Source: Citricoccus muralis
GTDB taxonomy: Bacteria; Actinomycetota; Actinomycetes; Actinomycetales; Micrococcaceae
DNA: 64,000 nt
Reading direction: 5' to 3'
Assembly (NCBI RefSeq): GCF_029637705.1
Contig: NZ_CP121252.1
Coordinates: 1,302,001 to 1,366,000 of the forward strand
A model generated the notes under the pieces. It saw nothing but the letters and a program-made list of their open reading frames with translations, was not told where the DNA came from and searched no databases. The position numbers were made by a program, and so were the translations under genes. This document shows, piece by piece, positions 26,758-32,760 of this stretch; within the stretch, counting starts at the first letter, position 1, and each line of letters starts with the position of its first letter.

Positions 26758-27777
26758 TCAGCCCGCTGGAGCTGGTCCGGTGGAGCCACGCACCCGCAAG
26801 GGGGAAGGGAGCCGGATGGTGCGGGGCCGGGTGTCCCCGCCGATCTGGGTCAACAACAAATCCACCGCGGCCCGACCAGCCTCCTCAACGGGTGCGTCCA
26901 AGCAGGTCAGCCCCGAATGTACGAAGCTCGCCCCGTAGGTGTTGTCGTAGCCGGTAATGGAGAGGTCCTCGGGTACCTGTACCCCGCGGCGCACGAAGTG
27001 GCGGATCATCCCAATCGCCAGTTGATCATTGAACGCCACGATCGCGGTGGGACGGTGCGCAGCGGCGATCTCTCCGGCCACTGGCCCCTGATCGTAGTTG
27101 GGAGAGAAAGGTCCGGTGCGGATGATCGTCATACCGAGTTTCCGCGCTCCGTGATGCAGTGCACGCCAGCGTTGTAGATTGGTCCAGCTATTGTTCGGCC
27201 CGGCGCAGTACACCACGCGACGGTGCCCCAAGGCGTGCAGGTGCTCGATGAGCTGATGCGAACTTTCGGAGGTACCGGCGATGACCGAACTGACACCGAC
27301 CACCTCCCGGTTGAACATCACCAGGGGTTGGTGACGAGCCAGTTCGCGCATTTCTGTATCCGAAGTGGACCGTGCCGAGGTAATGATGCCGTCGACGGCA
27401 CGCGATACCCGCTCGATGAGGACCTGTTCCATGGCCGGAGTTTCTTCGGCGTCACCAACGACAGCCAGATAGCCAGCGGCCTTGGCTTGACGGACCACGC
27501 CTTTGACCAGATCCGTGAAGAACGGATTAGCGCTGTCCTGCACGAGCAGATACAGGGTGCGCGACATGGTGCGGGCCGGCGTCACCCGTGCAGGTTCGCG
27601 GCGATATCCCAACCGGGCGGCGACGGCCATAATGTGCTCGACGGTCTGAAAGTTCACCCGGTCCGGCTGGGTGAAGGCCCGAGACGCCGTGGACAGCGCC
27701 ACCCCGGCGGCGTCGGCGACATCGCGCAACAGTACCCGTTCGGCTGCGGAGGGATCCTGATCGGCTGTGCGTGTCAT
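26758..27777 (-). CDS. LacI-family transcriptional regulator
   Basis: 339-residue repressor or activator. N-terminal HTH and hinge helix at about 15-60 (LRDVADAAGVALSTASRAF ... AVAARLGYRR). A periplasmic-binding-like ligand domain follows (LVQDSANPFFTDLVKGV, DGIITSARST, AIVAFNDQLAIGMIR, SITGYDN). Divergent from tctCBA with 336 bp between, in which CAACCGGTTG is a good LacI-type operator; it therefore probably senses the carboxylate imported by Tct. The ligand-binding domain gives no clue to the substrate. ATG 27777 follows AAGGG. Confidence 0.9.
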   Translation of the reverse strand: MTRTADQDPSAAERVLLRDVADAAGVALSTASRAFTQPDRVNFQTVEHIMAVAARLGYRREPARVTPARTMSRTLYLLVQDSANPFFTDLVKGVVRQAKAAGYLAVVGDAEETPAMEQVLIERVSRAVDGIITSARSTSDTEMRELARHQPLVMFNREVVGVSSVIAGTSESSHQLIEHLHALGHRRVVYCAGPNNSWTNLQRWRALHHGARKLGMTIIRTGPFSPNYDQGPVAGEIAAAHRPTAIVAFNDQLAIGMIRHFVRRGVQVPEDLSITGYDNTYGASFVHSGLTCLDAPVEEAGRAAVDLLLTQIGGDTRPRTIRLPSPLRVRGSTGPAPAG

Positions 27778-27845
27778 CTCCGGTGACCCTTCCCGGGCGA
27801 GCGGTGGTGGTAGCGGTGTGACGCGCCTAACTCAGTTGAGTGGAT

Positions 27846-27938
27846 ATTGCCATGCGTTGCCAGGATCTGTCCATTCCGCCGGGAACAGCGCGGAGTGGCG
27901 GCCGTCACAATCGGTCATGCTTGGCAACTTTTGGCAAT
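27846..27938. repeat. inverted pair of ATTGCCAnnnGTTGCCA elements
   Basis: The plus strand reads ATTGCCAtgcGTTGCCA at 27846-27862; the minus strand reads ATTGCCAaaaGTTGCCA for 27922-27938. All 14 specified positions match and only the 3-bp spacers differ. The half-sites repeat with a 10-bp period, one helical turn, as expected for tandem binding of a dimeric regulator. This is distinct from the CAACCGGTTG operator. Confidence 0.7.
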
Positions 27939-28006
27939 TGTGTGACCTGACCCGGGTGGTCGTGGCAAGCTGGTTCATCATCATGTTGTGACTCAGATCA
28001 CGTTTG

Positions 28007-28016
28007 CAACCGGTTG
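28007..28016. promoter_or_regulatory. LacI-type operator CAACCGGTTG
   Basis: Perfect 10-bp palindrome with central CG, within TTTGCAACCGGTTGTATT (28003-28020). LacI-family sites usually have this AAnCGnTT-like core. It is about 100 bp upstream of the tctC start and is the likely target of the divergent LacI protein. Confidence 0.6.
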
Positions 28017-28113
28017 TATTGGATGTTCATTCATACCGATGGCACAGCGTAGGCGGGGTCAGACACGCGACAACACACCCACACATCACATCGCCCTTTC
28101 TTGGAGGAACGTC

Positions 28114-29115
28114 ATGTTGAATCGCACATCGCGCCGGGGCCGGTCCCTGATCACCACCATCGCTCTGGCAGCCACCGCCGGCCTGGCTCTGAGCGCCTGC
28201 GCCAGCAATAACGGCGGTGGGGAAGAAGACTCCGAATTTCCCACGAAGGATCTGCGCCTGATCGTGCCATGGCAGGCCGGTGGCTCCGGTGACCTCTCGG
28301 CACGCACCATCGCCCCACTGCTCGAGGACGAGCTCGGCGTCAACGTCGTCGTCGAGAACCGTCCGGGTGCCAATGGCTCCGTCGGCTACAACTGGCTGAA
28401 GGAACAGGAACCGGACGGCTACAACATGTCCATGGTCGGGGCCGAGGTTGCCACTCTGCAGTTCATGGACTACGACATCTCTCCGGATGACTATGAGTTC
28501 CTCTCTCAGATCATCTCCGGCCCGGGCGCCATTGCCGTGCGCTCGGACAGTCCCTACGAGACCCTGCAGGATCTCATCGACGATGCCAAGGAGCGTCCGG
28601 GCGAGGTCACTTACTCATCTCCCGGTGTGGGCTCGGTGTGGGACAACCCGGCCCAAGGGCTGCAGGAATTGGCCGACATTGAGCTGACCAACGTCCCCTT
28701 CGACGGTTCGGCTCCCTCCATTGCCGCTGCTGCGGCCGGTGACGTGGACTTCTCCATCGACGCCGTGGGCTCCCAGAAGGCCCAGGTCGACGGCGGAGAA
28801 ATGCGTTACCTCGCCGTGCTCACCGAGGAGCGGCTGGAAGAGCTACCTGACGTGCCCACCGCCGCTGAAGAGGGCGTAGACCTGCAGAACGCTTCCTTCA
28901 CCGGAATCGTGGTGCCGGCTGGCACTCCCGAGGACGTCGTGACGGTGCTCAGCGAAGCCATCCAGGCTGCCGCGCAGGATCCCGCCTACACCGACGTGAT
29001 CGAAAGTTCCAACCTCATCCCGCTGGGCACCTCCGCCGAGGAATTCGACGCCTTCATCCAGGAAGAAGAAGAGCGTCACGGCCGCTGGATCGAATTGGCA
29101 CAGTCCACCGAGTGA
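28114..29115 (+). CDS. tctC: tripartite tricarboxylate transporter substrate-binding lipoprotein TctC
   Basis: Extracytoplasmic binding protein of a TTT-type secondary transporter, 333 residues. Signal peptide with lipobox LALSAC (Cys29). The mature part carries DLRLIVPWQAGGSGDLSARTIAPLLE, VENRPGANGSVGYNWL, GPGAIAVRSDSPYETLQDLIDDAK and VTYSSPGVGS, all classical Bug/TctC features. The start is ATG 28114 behind GGAGG; the frame is open further upstream without a start signal. The ligand is a carboxylate, not further definable. First gene of tctCBA. Confidence 0.93.
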   Translation: MLNRTSRRGRSLITTIALAATAGLALSACASNNGGGEEDSEFPTKDLRLIVPWQAGGSGDLSARTIAPLLEDELGVNVVVENRPGANGSVGYNWLKEQEPDGYNMSMVGAEVATLQFMDYDISPDDYEFLSQIISGPGAIAVRSDSPYETLQDLIDDAKERPGEVTYSSPGVGSVWDNPAQGLQELADIELTNVPFDGSAPSIAAAAAGDVDFSIDAVGSQKAQVDGGEMRYLAVLTEERLEELPDVPTAAEEGVDLQNASFTGIVVPAGTPEDVVTVLSEAIQAAAQDPAYTDVIESSNLIPLGTSAEEFDAFIQEEEERHGRWIELAQSTE

Positions 29116-29128
29116 AAGCGAGAAGACG

Positions 29129-29692
29129 ATGACTGACTCGCCCCGCGAGTCCGTCGTCCGAGATGCTGACGCCGACGTCGCCCCCTCCGAGGAGGGGGCG
29201 ACGCTGGCAGAACTTCGGCATCCGGAGGCGGAACCTCTCCTGAAGAATCTCCCCTATCGGCTCCGTGAGCTGATCCCGGTGGCCGCCGCCGTGGGCGTGG
29301 GCATCTGGGTGCTGGTGATGACTGGCAATATCCAGGCACACAACCGCGGCGAACTGGGGCCGCAATTCTGGCCGACGATGCTCGCTACCGCGATGATCGT
29401 GATGGGCGGGCTGCTCATCCTGACCAACGTGATGCGCGGTGTACGGCCCGCCGACATTCCTGATCACATGACCTGGTGGGGCATAAGCCGCCTGCTGATC
29501 TCCGGCGCGGTGCTGGTCGGATACGTCTTGCTGTTTAACGTGCTGCAGTTCTGGTTGATTACCATCGCCGCGACCGCCCTGCTCGTGGCCCTCTACGGGT
29601 TGCGCGGCTGGCGGGCGCTGGTGGTATTTCCGATCATTATCGGAGCCGTGTTGCATCTGCTGTTCATTACTTTCTTGGGGGTTCCGCTATGA
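29129..29692 (+). CDS. tctB: tripartite tricarboxylate transporter small membrane subunit TctB
   Basis: 187 residues: a 45-residue acidic cytoplasmic N-terminus followed by four hydrophobic segments (IPVAAAVGVGIWVLVMT, FWPTMLATAMIVMGGLLIL, ISRLLISGAVLVGYVLLF, ALVVFPIIIGAVLHLLFI). GPQFWP is typical of TctB. It sits 13 bp after tctC and overlaps tctA by ATGA, so stoichiometric coupling with the large subunit is likely. Confidence 0.9.
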   Translation: MTDSPRESVVRDADADVAPSEEGATLAELRHPEAEPLLKNLPYRLRELIPVAAAVGVGIWVLVMTGNIQAHNRGELGPQFWPTMLATAMIVMGGLLILTNVMRGVRPADIPDHMTWWGISRLLISGAVLVGYVLLFNVLQFWLITIAATALLVALYGLRGWRALVVFPIIIGAVLHLLFITFLGVPL

Positions 29693-31281
29693 TCGAGCCA
29701 CTCATGACGGGGATGCTCCCCGATCTCTTCCACGCCGCCAGCTCGCAGCTGGTACTGGCGAATTCGGTGCTGGACGGCGCCTCCGTGGTGTTGCGCTGGG
29801 ACACTTTGATCTACATCGGCTTGGGCATGCTCGTCGGCATGCTGGTGGGTGCCTTCCCCGGCGTGACCGCCACCATGGCGGTCGCTCTGGCCTCCGGGTT
29901 CACCCTGACCATGGAACCGCTGCAGGGCCTGGCCGTGTTGCTGACCATCTACGTGGCCGCCCAGTTCGGTGACCGGGTACCCGCCATTCTGATCAACACC
30001 CCGGGCACGCCGTCATCGATTTCCACCACTTTTGATGGCTACCCGATGGCGAAGAACGGTCAGGCCGGCCTAGCGATGACCGTCTCTGCCTTCGGCTCGG
30101 CGTTCGGCATGGTTTTCGGCACGATCCTGTTGGCCCTGTTCGCGATCCCGATCGCCGGCCTGGCTCGTGAATTCGGTCCACCGGAGCTTTTCGCTCTGGT
30201 GGTCTTCGGCCTGACCATGATGATTGGTGTGTCGTCCGGACGCATCACCAAGGGCCTGATCGCCGGCATGTTTGGATTGTTCCTCGCCACCGTAGGGCGT
30301 GATCCGATCACCGGTGACCAGCGTTTCACCCTGGGCATCCTTGAGCTCAACGGCGGGGTTCCGTTCATTCCGGTGATTATTGGTCTGTTTGGTCTGGCCG
30401 AGGTGCTCAACCAGATGATCACGCACCGACGCAACGAAAAGCAGATCAAGCCGATTCAGCAGCTGGGCCGCTGGTTCCCTGATGGAGCTACCTTCCGCCG
30501 CATACTCAAGCCCATGGGTGTCGGTGCTGGTACCGGCTCCGTGGTGGGTCTCGTGCCCGCCGTCGGTGGTGACATTGCCGGCATCATCGCCTGGGACAAC
30601 GCCAAGCGCGTGTCCAAAAACAAGCACGAGTTCGGTAAGGGTTCTATTGAAGGGCTTACGGCGGGGGATACCTCCTCCACCGCCACCATTGGTGGCTCGG
30701 TGACGACCACGATGGCGCTGGGTATTCCCGGTGACTCCGTGATGGCGGTGCTGATCGGATCCATGATGATCTGGGGCATCCAGCCCGGACCGGCGCTGTT
30801 CGCGAACGATCCCTCGCTGGTTTACTCGCTGGCCATGATTCTGCTGATCGCGACCGTGTTGTCGCTGGCGGTCTCCCTGGTGCGCATGAAGTCGATGGTG
30901 AAGCTGCTGGAACTGAAGAACCAGTACCTGTGGGTGATCATCCTCGTGTTCTGTATCGTGGGCACCTTCTCGATCAACAACTCTGTCTTCGACGTGATGG
31001 TGATGCTGATCATGGGCCTGGTTGGACTGTTCATGCTCCGCTTCGGATTCCCGCCCGGCCCGGCTGTGCTGGGACTCATCTTGGGCCCGCTGGCTGAATC
31101 CAACCTGCGTCGAACGCTCATCGGTGGCGGATGGGAGGCATTCCTCGGTTCGCCGATTGCCCTGGTGCTTTTCGCCATCTCGGCGGCGGCACTCATTCTG
31201 CCTCCGCTGCGGGCTATGCGCGCTCGCCGTAAGGCAGCCATGGCTGGCAAAGACGAGGGTATGTCCGTGCTGATTCCCTGA
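29689..31281 (+). CDS. tctA: tripartite tricarboxylate transporter large permease TctA
   Basis: 530-residue membrane protein with about 11-12 hydrophobic segments. Signature regions GAFPGVTATMAVALA (about 55) and GDRVPAILINTPGTPSSISTTFDGYPMAKNGQA (about 95-125), the duplicated Gly/Pro motifs of the transport path, and the later TAGDTSSTATIGGSVTTTMALGIPGDSVMAVLIG. Imports a carboxylate with H+ or Na+. Last gene of the operon, followed by a bidirectional terminator. Confidence 0.94.
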   Translation: MIEPLMTGMLPDLFHAASSQLVLANSVLDGASVVLRWDTLIYIGLGMLVGMLVGAFPGVTATMAVALASGFTLTMEPLQGLAVLLTIYVAAQFGDRVPAILINTPGTPSSISTTFDGYPMAKNGQAGLAMTVSAFGSAFGMVFGTILLALFAIPIAGLAREFGPPELFALVVFGLTMMIGVSSGRITKGLIAGMFGLFLATVGRDPITGDQRFTLGILELNGGVPFIPVIIGLFGLAEVLNQMITHRRNEKQIKPIQQLGRWFPDGATFRRILKPMGVGAGTGSVVGLVPAVGGDIAGIIAWDNAKRVSKNKHEFGKGSIEGLTAGDTSSTATIGGSVTTTMALGIPGDSVMAVLIGSMMIWGIQPGPALFANDPSLVYSLAMILLIATVLSLAVSLVRMKSMVKLLELKNQYLWVIILVFCIVGTFSINNSVFDVMVMLIMGLVGLFMLRFGFPPGPAVLGLILGPLAESNLRRTLIGGGWEAFLGSPIALVLFAISAAALILPPLRAMRARRKAAMAGKDEGMSVLIP

Positions 31282-31383: not shown

Positions 31384-32760
31384 TCAGGACTCACGGATGG
31401 TGAACAACCGCTTGTTCACGAATTCGTCCATGCCCAGCGGGCCCAACTCGCGCCCATAGCCGGAGCGCTTGACCCCGCCGAAGGGCAAGTCGGCCCCGGA
31501 GGTGTTGTACCCGTTCACATGAGACATGCCAACCTCCAGCTGCTCTGCCAGCCGTGTGGCTTGCTCGACGTCCGTGGAAAACACCGAGCCGCCCAGACCG
31601 TACGCAGAGTCGTTGGCCAGTGTGAGTGCTTCTTCTTCCGAAGACACCTTGTAGACCATGGCCACCGGACCGAAGAGCTCCTCCTGGTAGGCGCGTGCAG
31701 CCGGAGTGATGTCGGTCATTACCGTCGGCTGGACGTAGTACCCATCTCGTGCCTCGCGCTGTCCGCCCACGCGGATCGTGGCGCCGTTCTGTGCGGCGTC
31801 GGCGATCTGGCTCAGCAGCCCTTCTACGGCCGACTCCGATGAGACCGGGGGATAGGTGCCACGTTCCGAGGCGGCAGGATCACCGGCGGTCAGCGATTCG
31901 GCTTCGGCAACGAGTGATTCGACGAACTCGTCGTAGATATCCTCCATCACGATCATCCGCTTATTGGAGGTGCAGGCCTGGCCGGCGTTGGAGAGCCGGG
32001 TGCGCAGCGCGGTCTTCGCGGACTTGGCCACATCGTCCGAGCTGAGGATGATGTATGGGTCGGAGCCACCGAGTTCCAGTACGACCTTCTTGAGATGCCT
32101 GCCGGCCTGTTCGGCCACAATGGCGCCGGCCCGCTCGGACCCGGTCAGCGACACCCCCTGGATCTGAGGCGCGGCGATGATGGTGGAGATTTGCTCGTGG
32201 GTAGCGAAGACGTTCTGGTAGACGCCCTCAGGCACTCCTGCTTCGTGGAGCAGCTCGGCGATCGCGAGCGCGGAGGCCGCGCAGATTTCAGCGTGCTTGA
32301 GGATGATGGTGTTGCCCAGCATCAGGTTCGGCGCGGCGAATCGGGCCACCTGGTAGTACGGGAAGTTCCAGGGCATAATGCCCAGCAACCCGCCGACCGG
32401 ACGGCGCTGAATCAGACACCGGGTGCCGTCGATATTGCGCAGCTCTTGGTCTTTGCTAAGCTCTTCGCCTTCGGTGGCGTAATAGCGGAAGATCTGGGCC
32501 ACGTACTTGACCTCGCCGACGGCTTCGCGCAACGGTTTTCCCATCTCGCGGGTGGCGATGGCGGCCAGGTCCTCTGCGCGTTCGTCAAAGAGATCGGCGA
32601 CCCGCTGCAGGATAGTTCCCCGCTCGGACATGGGCCGAGCCGACCATGCGCGATAGGCCCGCTCGGTGGTGGTCAGTGCCTGTTCGATTTGCTCGTCGGT
32701 GGCGTTGTCGAACTCGCGCTCAATCACGCCGGTGCTTGGATTCTGTGTGCGGAAGCCCAC
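31384..32760 (-). CDS. gabD: NAD(P)-dependent succinate-semialdehyde dehydrogenase-like aldehyde dehydrogenase
   Basis: 458-residue aldehyde dehydrogenase oxidising an aldehyde to a carboxylate. Active-site Asn132 (PWNFPYYQ), general base Glu229 (ELGGSDPYI) and nucleophile Cys263 (GQACTSNKR) are present. Length and NTGxIEREF-like opening fit the GabD1 subgroup that lacks an N-terminal extension. Succinic semialdehyde is the likely but unproven substrate. It is convergent with the carboxylate transporter; whether they share a pathway is open. Start ATG 32760 behind AAGGAGGAT-like sequence. Confidence 0.88.

Follow-up and report, generated by a model that had tools for sequence, protein, structure and literature searches.

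The divergent genes lacI and tctC of the window (the whole 64,000-nucleotide stretch analyzed here, G000:C1:1302001-1366000) are separated by a short region in which two identical elements face each other, and the question is which protein reads them and how. According to the original prediction, a second regulator besides LacI may act on the elements, and two dimers may loop the DNA between them. Tct operons are classically controlled by the TctDE two-component pair. The predicted lack of such a pair was borne out for the TctE-type sensor: PF08521, which we take to be the TctE sensor domain, gave no matches in the whole G000 genome, while a control search found this domain in E. coli. TctDE was thus set aside as the regulator here.

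The gene adjacent to tctC encodes a protein with an N-terminal helix-turn-helix domain (PF00356; 40.3 bits, cut-off 27) and a periplasmic-binding-protein-like effector domain (PF13377; 107.2 bits, cut-off 26.5). This protein is a member of the LacI/GalR family; the loss of its hinge motif, described below, lowers the expectation that it binds like LacI, not its membership. The features of the locus are listed in Table 1.

Table 1. Features of the lacI-tctC locus and related sites (window positions unless a contig is given)
Feature	Position	Strand	Remarks
lacI, LacI-family repressor, 339 aa	26758..27777	-	start at 27777; PF00356, PF13377; canonical hinge motif absent; proposed reader of both elements
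Possible lacI promoter, TGGCAA-N17-TAGGCG	27824..27852	-	proposed by eye; putative -35 overlaps distal operator
Element copy 1, ATTGCCATGCGTTGCCA	27846..27862	+	
Distal candidate operator	27846..27862	-	exact tandem pair; half-sites 27847-27852 and 27857-27862; TGGCAACGCATGGCAA towards lacI
Proximal candidate operator	27921..27938	+	TTGGCAA half-sites 27921-27927 and 27931-27937; towards tctC
Element copy 2, ATTGCCAAAAGTTGCCA	27922..27938	-	
Possible tctC promoter, GTGACC-N18-CAAGCT	27942..27971	+	tentatively proposed by eye
TGTGA-N6-TCACG (TGTGA-CTCAGA-TCACG)	27987..28002	+	position checked; just downstream of possible tctC promoter
TGCAACCGGTTGTA, originally predicted LacI box	28005..28018	.	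CG-centred palindrome; probably not a conserved operator of the window LacI; TGCAACCGGTTGYA site
tctC, transporter substrate-binding protein	28114..29115	+	start codon ATG at 28114; PF03401, 181.4 bits
tctB and tctA	29129..31281	+	PF07331 and PF01970
TGCAACCGGTTGYA site (L209)	G000:C1:419129-419142		
TGCAACCGGTTGYA site (L210)	G000:C1:1947056-1947069		
TGCAACCGGTTGYA site (L211)	G000:C1:2961901-2961914		

Paired elements between lacI and tctC

The observation of two facing elements was confirmed. Both 17-bp copies match ATTGCCANNNGTTGCCA exactly, with identity at all 14 defined positions, and within each copy the starts of the TTGCCA half-sites are separated by 10 bp, i.e., one helical turn, as had been predicted. 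The predicted distance of 76 bp is correct when measured from start to start and incorrect as a gap, the true gap between the elements being 59 bp. When up to three mismatches were allowed, the element pattern gave 4 matches in the window, where 4.27 would be expected by chance; the two exact copies are therefore the only informative matches there. Nine matches with at most two mismatches were found in the whole genome (G000, 3,129,675 bp); these two copies are the only exact ones among them, and exact TGGCAA-N4-TGGCAA likewise occurs at these two places only. Of 20,000 dinucleotide shuffles of the 336-bp intergenic region, 6 contained an inverted pair of identical, non-overlapping 7-3-7 elements; in further sets of the same size, a single shuffle had at least one tandem TGGCAA pair and none had two. 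The complete facing pair was found in the window genome only among the 296 genomes searched, of which G000 is the sole member of its genus.

Conservation of the elements at tctC loci

Relatives of tctC were sought in 176 genomes of the family and in named genomes. Among the loci fetched, an orthologous divergent lacI-tctC pair was present in six other genomes, namely Yaniella (L010), Enteractinococcus (L011), Citricoccus zhacaiensis (L012), two more Citricoccus (L021 and L023) and the genome G010 (L025). The original prediction regarded absence of the motif from orthologous regions as a sign of chance. The tctC-side element is present in all six regions as an exact tandem TGGCAA-N4/5-TGGCAA, with GCAA-N5-GGCAA common to all of them at the aligned place. 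Yaniella and Enteractinococcus carry an exact TTGGCAA-N3-TTGGCAA, from which G010 deviates at one position, and the sequence of the proximal element in the Citricoccus group is CCGCAA-TTT-TTGGCAA-N4-CTGGCAA. Of the distal element, an exact copy was seen in the window alone; TTTCCA-N4-TTGCCG is aligned with it in three genomes of the Citricoccus group, and nothing clear was found at the aligned place in the remaining three orthologous genomes.

At loci without an adjacent lacI, the tandem repeat was found in none of nine tctC upstream stretches, which were drawn from 11 such tct loci, some sharing one genome, and which include two (L013 and L031) with a gene close upstream and perhaps no promoter there. 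A different upstream palindrome, e.g., TGTGCGCATTACGCACA, was seen at lacI-less tctC homologues (L014, L015, L016, L017, L026, L027 and L030); TGTGCG-N5-CGCACA is an example, and palindromes of the TGTGCGCATTACGCACA type are perhaps IclR-type sites.

As would be expected of a chance repeat, both elements are exact in one genome only, but the low frequency of the inverted pair among the shuffles, the conservation and the tracking of the regulator described in the following section make such an origin hardly credible, and for the proximal element it is contradicted.

Distribution of the repeat among LacI homologues

When 295 genomes of the family were searched with the LacI protein, 89 of them contained a total of 100 matches with E values of 1e-60 or lower. 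An exact TGGCAA tandem was located near the 5' end of lacI in 25 of the 30 best loci, the window's own counted, and was absent from the other five (L053, L055, L074, L077 and L078). The loci bearing the tandem adjoin various operons, not just tct. Thus, in L190 the neighbor of lacI encodes an ABC solute-binding protein, and the cluster also contains genes for glucuronate isomerase and beta-glucuronidase; in L193, where the pair has one mismatch, lacI is situated next to a shikimate-transporter gene and a Gfo/Idh-like gene (by eye).

The pattern TTGGCAANNNTTGGCAA was found at 16 sites in 13 of 174 genomes of the family, compared with 2 sites for the reversed control pattern. By coordinates, all 16 sites lie no more than 14 kb from a lacI gene of the subfamily match list. 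Three genomes (G017, G103 and G136) contain two sites each, and the L190 example precedes the beta-glucuronidase gene. The stricter pattern TTGGCAANNNTTGGCAANCGNTTGCC was detected in 2 of 396 order-level genomes, both from the window's family. As a control, LacI-domain genes in five genomes were considered (30 of 33 examined), and the exact tandem was found at 6 of the 7 subfamily members and at 0 of the 23 others; the single exception, L097, is the same gene as L178. One misfit is the genome G023, where a CG-type site lies 5.5 kb from a hinge-lost LacI gene and is adjoined by a second LacI homologue (34% identical, with a canonical-like hinge). Judging from this layout, another LacI homologue may be the reader of some of the sites that lie several kb away from a lacI of the match list.

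Separately, the canonical-hinge LacI proteins of L190, L191 and L195 appear to control a glucuronate/glucuronide regulon in which several genes have their own TTGGCAANNNTTGGCAANCGN site; the genes include those for glucuronate isomerase, beta-glucuronidase, KDPG aldolase, a KDG kinase-like protein and an ABC transporter.

The second regulator that was originally predicted is unnecessary, since in different genomes and beside different operons the repeat accompanies the subfamily of the neighboring LacI. Response regulators commonly recognize direct repeats with a period of one turn, and a regulator of the OmpR type, for example, might occupy the elements while LacI binds CAACCGGTTG. Against this, the repeat follows one LacI subfamily beside unrelated operons and is missing from the 23 other LacI-type neighborhoods examined; the evidence from the operators of relatives and from CAACCGGTTG itself is given below.

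Hinge motif and operator type

Ninety of the 100 subfamily matches (the 30 best loci and 60 more) were classified according to the hinge motif ARxL(R/S)xG and to the sites within 400 bp upstream. Two TTGGCAA copies counted as a direct pair if they showed at most 3 mismatches of 14 and if each half had G at position 4; for a CG-centred palindrome, at most 4 mismatches of 14 were accepted. The canonical hinge motif is absent from the window LacI and present in 55 of the 90 homologues. The palindrome was detected at 54 of the 55 canonical-hinge loci and at 1 of the 35 hinge-lost loci (L052, where the CG falls in the spacer of the direct pair); 33 of the hinge-lost loci had a direct pair. When identical operators were removed, the palindrome was present in 45 of 46 canonical versus 1 of 30 hinge-lost cases (Fisher p about 1e-18, relatedness ignored) and the direct pair in 29 of 46 versus 28 of 30. 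Both tests failed at 3 of the 90 loci (L175, L178 and L184), and the rule of G at position 4 dropped 17 canonical loci and no hinge-lost ones. A CG-centred palindrome was not found by this test at positions 27846-27938 of the window.

Canonical relatives with both features carry TTGGCAA-N3-TTGGCAA-NCGN-TTGCC, in which an ordinary LacI palindrome is preceded by an additional half-site one turn away. The second half-site of the pair is the left arm of the CG-centred palindrome in these relatives, which is a further point against a second regulator. The NCGN-TTG arm is present at 12 of the 16 TTGGCAANNNTTGGCAA sites; the four sites without it belong to the window, Enteractinococcus, Yaniella and G047, and the LacI proteins at all four have lost the hinge motif. 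The pair alone needs no lost hinge, because 37 of the 55 canonical relatives also have a direct pair.

In a tree built without the hinge columns, four changes were needed for the hinge type and four for the CG centre. Two independent contrasts were supported, although parts of the tree are unsure owing to long branches (L175, L178, L054 and L182 among others); the CG centre shifts with the hinge in one contrast and stays the same in the other. The association between hinge type and operator type is tight in these sequences, but it comprises few events and is not proof. We regard it as a tentative proposal, with slightly less than an even chance of being right, that the hinge helix was lost more than once in the subfamily and that the operator each time passed from a CG palindrome with an additional half-site to a head-to-tail form. 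The symmetry of the operator would then have co-evolved with the linker, and the window would represent the end state, with one direct-repeat operator per divergent promoter.

More distant homologues were considered on plasmids, where 12 of 15 matches were inspected. A Microvirga plasmid (Alphaproteobacteria; L197, 40% identical, canonical hinge) contains TTGACAA-GGT-TTGGCAA-TCGG-TTGCA (L197:1110-1126 and the following bases) approximately 90 bp upstream of a divergent gene for a sugar ABC transporter, the layout being as in the canonical relatives. An Arthrobacter plasmid homologue (L202) has a pair with three mismatches followed by TCGG-TTGTC. No clear pair was seen in six other inspected plasmid homologues. 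The direct-plus-palindrome layout thus extends outside the window's family and, as L197 shows, beyond the Actinobacteria as well.

Orientation of the half-sites and protein model

TTGGCAA differs from its own reverse complement (TTGCCAA) at one position only, and the head-to-tail appearance might arise from this near self-complementarity, with LacI binding the elements as imperfect mirror-image sites. With a 4-bp spacer the pair is indeed one mismatch from a palindrome, e.g., in L144, L166 and L171. This reading was judged unlikely from the letters of the half-sites. All 33 hinge-lost pairs with at most 3 mismatches have G at position 4 in both halves. Among the 28 distinct hinge-lost pairs, position 1, at the 5' end, is variable in each half (T in 15 and 16) and position 7 is nearly fixed in each (A in 26 and 27); the choice of pairs for likeness to TTGGCAA favors such letters, but not this asymmetry between positions 1 and 7. 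The halves thus appear to have the same sense, because in an inverted arrangement position 4 would not be the same in the two halves and the variable letter would stand at opposite ends. The spacer between the TTGGCAA copies in the hinge-lost clades is 3 or 4 bp, and the usual spacing is 3 bp, versus 4 bp in the canonical palindrome. The best pair points away from lacI in 88 of the 90 loci.

AlphaFold2 modeling (26 sequences) of the canonical relative L061 placed a helix at residues 52-59, corresponding to the hinge, with pLDDT below 50 at residues 54-60. The model of the window LacI has no helix between residues 56 and 85, with pLDDT below 50 at residues 63-70. The model thus agrees, weakly, with the loss of the hinge helix in the window LacI, and the low pLDDT at 63-70 is at most a hint of a flexible linker, L061 being of low confidence there too.

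E. coli LacI has a C-terminal tetramerisation helix, and DNA looping is known for this protein. The two identical elements, with starts 76 bp apart, could similarly be joined by a loop held by a tetramer or by two interacting dimers, as was originally predicted for two dimers, and looping was proposed for AcrC (PMC5526262). The model of the window LacI ends at residue 339 and shows no helix after the last core strand, making a LacI-like tetramerisation helix unlikely. In addition, the distal element is exact in the window alone, and the orientation of the elements is accounted for by divergent promoters. The prediction of looping therefore found no support, and we consider a loop improbable.

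The CAACCGGTTG palindrome downstream of the elements

The CG-centred palindrome CAACCGGTTG had been predicted to be the LacI operator. It is not conserved: AACCGGTT is absent from all six orthologous intergenic regions, and CAACCGGTTG was therefore rejected as a conserved operator of the window LacI. With at most one mismatch, TGCAACCGGTTGYA occurs at four places in the genome (Table 1), compared with none for the reversed control. Of the other three sites, one precedes a shikimate dehydrogenase-like gene and another a gene for class II DAHP synthase, each at a distance of approximately 45-50 bp, and because of this recurrence the palindrome may belong to another factor. The arrangement suggests a small shikimate-related regulon, including tctCBA, that would be read by a factor other than the window LacI. 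A candidate reader is the paralogue L096 (G000:634363), which has a canonical hinge; the palindrome was not found in the 400 bp before L096.

Perfect TGCAACCGGTTGCA was observed before lacI on four alphaproteobacterial plasmids (L199, L200, L201 and L207; 33-37% identical, canonical hinge), where the neighboring genes encode 6-phosphogluconolactonase or glucosamine-6-phosphate deaminase and SIS/sugar isomerase-domain proteins. L096 is about as similar to these four homologues (34-37%) as the window LacI is (33-37%). Exact TGCAACCGGTTGCA was also tried as a family-wide regulon mark and rejected, as it was present in 3 of 174 genomes only, with no clear common target. One of the three exact TGCAACCGGTTGCA sites from this search is in an Enteractinococcus genome (G109, L213) and sits there, by eye, between an argS-like gene and a look-alike of the aldehyde dehydrogenase gene found downstream of tctA in the window (31384-32760).

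The resemblance of CAACCGGTTG to a standard LacI-type box and the four homologues with TGCAACCGGTTGCA before lacI agree with LacI binding at CAACCGGTTG and a second regulator binding at the elements. Taken with the points given above, the lack of conservation of CAACCGGTTG and of any TctE-type domain in the genome makes this arrangement a doubtful one, about as improbable as the loop.

Proposed regulation and possible effector

The reading that we prefer, with a probability of about 0.78, is that both elements are operators of the divergently encoded CytR-like LacI-family repressor, which would repress tctCBA and its own gene through one operator per divergent promoter. Each operator would consist of head-to-tail TTGGCAA half-sites 10 bp apart that read towards the gene they precede, the proximal operator serving tctCBA and the distal one lacI. 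The inverted layout of the elements follows from this arrangement, because each reads 5'-TGGCAA..TGGCAA-3' towards its own gene. In the effector-free state, the dimer would occupy both half-sites of an operator that adjoins or covers the -35 region, and tctCBA and lacI would thereby be repressed; effector binding would release the repressor. Since the hinge motif and the CG-centred palindrome are lost in this clade and the direct repeat is kept, the linker is probably so flexible that the two heads can bind with the same orientation, of which CytR is a described example.

In canonical relatives, the right arm TTGCCG is followed 17 bp on by TAGACT, a good -10 hexamer, at several loci (by eye). 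The operator would thus cover the -35 region in these relatives, because the TTGCCG arm stands 17 bp before TAGACT. The possible tctC promoter of the window is situated where they carry TTGCCG-N17-TAGACT, and the proximal operator stops 4 bp short of the equivalent place. A block of polymerase at both promoters, together with autoregulation, is the simplest reading. The TGTGA-N6-TCACG site of the window is presumably CRP/GlxR-like, and GTGA-N6-TCAC sites are visible at a similar place in several relatives (uncounted). The CytR mode of binding includes cooperation with a CRP-type protein at flanking sites, and the window sequence at 27987-28002 might be a candidate for such a site.

Some indication of the effector is provided by the gene neighborhoods. 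Homologues in G162 and G175 (53-55% identical) are found in clusters with a shikimate transporter gene (NF007414, 659 bits, cut-off 538 in G162; the G175 counterpart looks alike) and with a TIM-barrel gene weakly similar to QuiC (36 bits, cut-off 1200). In G175, a gene for shikimate dehydrogenase (NF009201, 405.5 bits, cut-off 235) and tctCBA are also located approximately 8 kb away. The canonical-hinge relatives instead sit with glucuronate genes. As a best guess of low confidence, both the transported compound and the effector may be a shikimate- or quinate-like acid.

Comparison with known systems

LacI-type repressors are the textbook example of symmetry in both the protein and its binding site. 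Most LacI-family dimers bind a mirror-image site with a central CG, the hinge helix lying in the minor groove. For E. coli LacI, the hinge helix in the minor groove is described as folding along with DNA bending (PMC9743208). Close relatives of the window LacI, members of the same protein family, carry operators of this canonical kind (TTGGCAA-NCGN-TTGCC), whereas the operators proposed for the window have no CG-centred mirror-image site. The hinge motif and the matching CG-centred site are present in some relatives and missing from others, which provides a natural series suited to testing how mirror-image recognition becomes head-to-tail recognition. No report on this LacI subfamily, the TTGGCAA half-site or the hinge-operator series was found in the open-access literature searched. 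In a survey of LacI-family operators, palindromes were sought and described, with a central CG in 1173 of 1303, and the term "direct repeat" is absent from the portion of its main text available (PMC4052901); palindrome-restricted motif searches such as this one can miss direct-repeat operators.

For the tct operon, the likely regulator can now be named as the neighboring LacI protein. The tctCBA transporter is common to this locus and to the TctDE-controlled operons, and the window has a LacI-type gene beside the operon, with no TctE-type sensor domain found in the genome.

Direct-repeat operators are already known in the LacI family, namely for CytR and for MalR of S. lividans (PMC5526262 for MalR). 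MalR (Streptomyces) and AcrC (Actinoplanes) are, like the window LacI, actinobacterial LacI-type repressors; they differ in the half-site (CTTGCAG) and in the genes involved, and direct repeats occur there among several arrangements.

The closest parallel is CytR of E. coli. In a 1998 paper its relaxed spacing was reportedly credited to a flexible, unstructured interdomain linker. The half-sites of CytR may be inverted or direct with relaxed spacing, direct repeats are conserved at cytR and cdd, and its heads are said to be able to bind half-sites in the same direction (PMC3454398). CytR is also the best-scoring NCBIfam model for the window LacI, yet at 159.2 bits versus a cut-off of 436 the protein is not CytR. 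The likeness, at the level of sequence, lies in the LacI family and in direct repeats with variable spacing, whereas the half-site TTGGCAA with a period of 10-11 bp differs from the CytR octamers with their 1-bp spacer, and the genes concerned are different.
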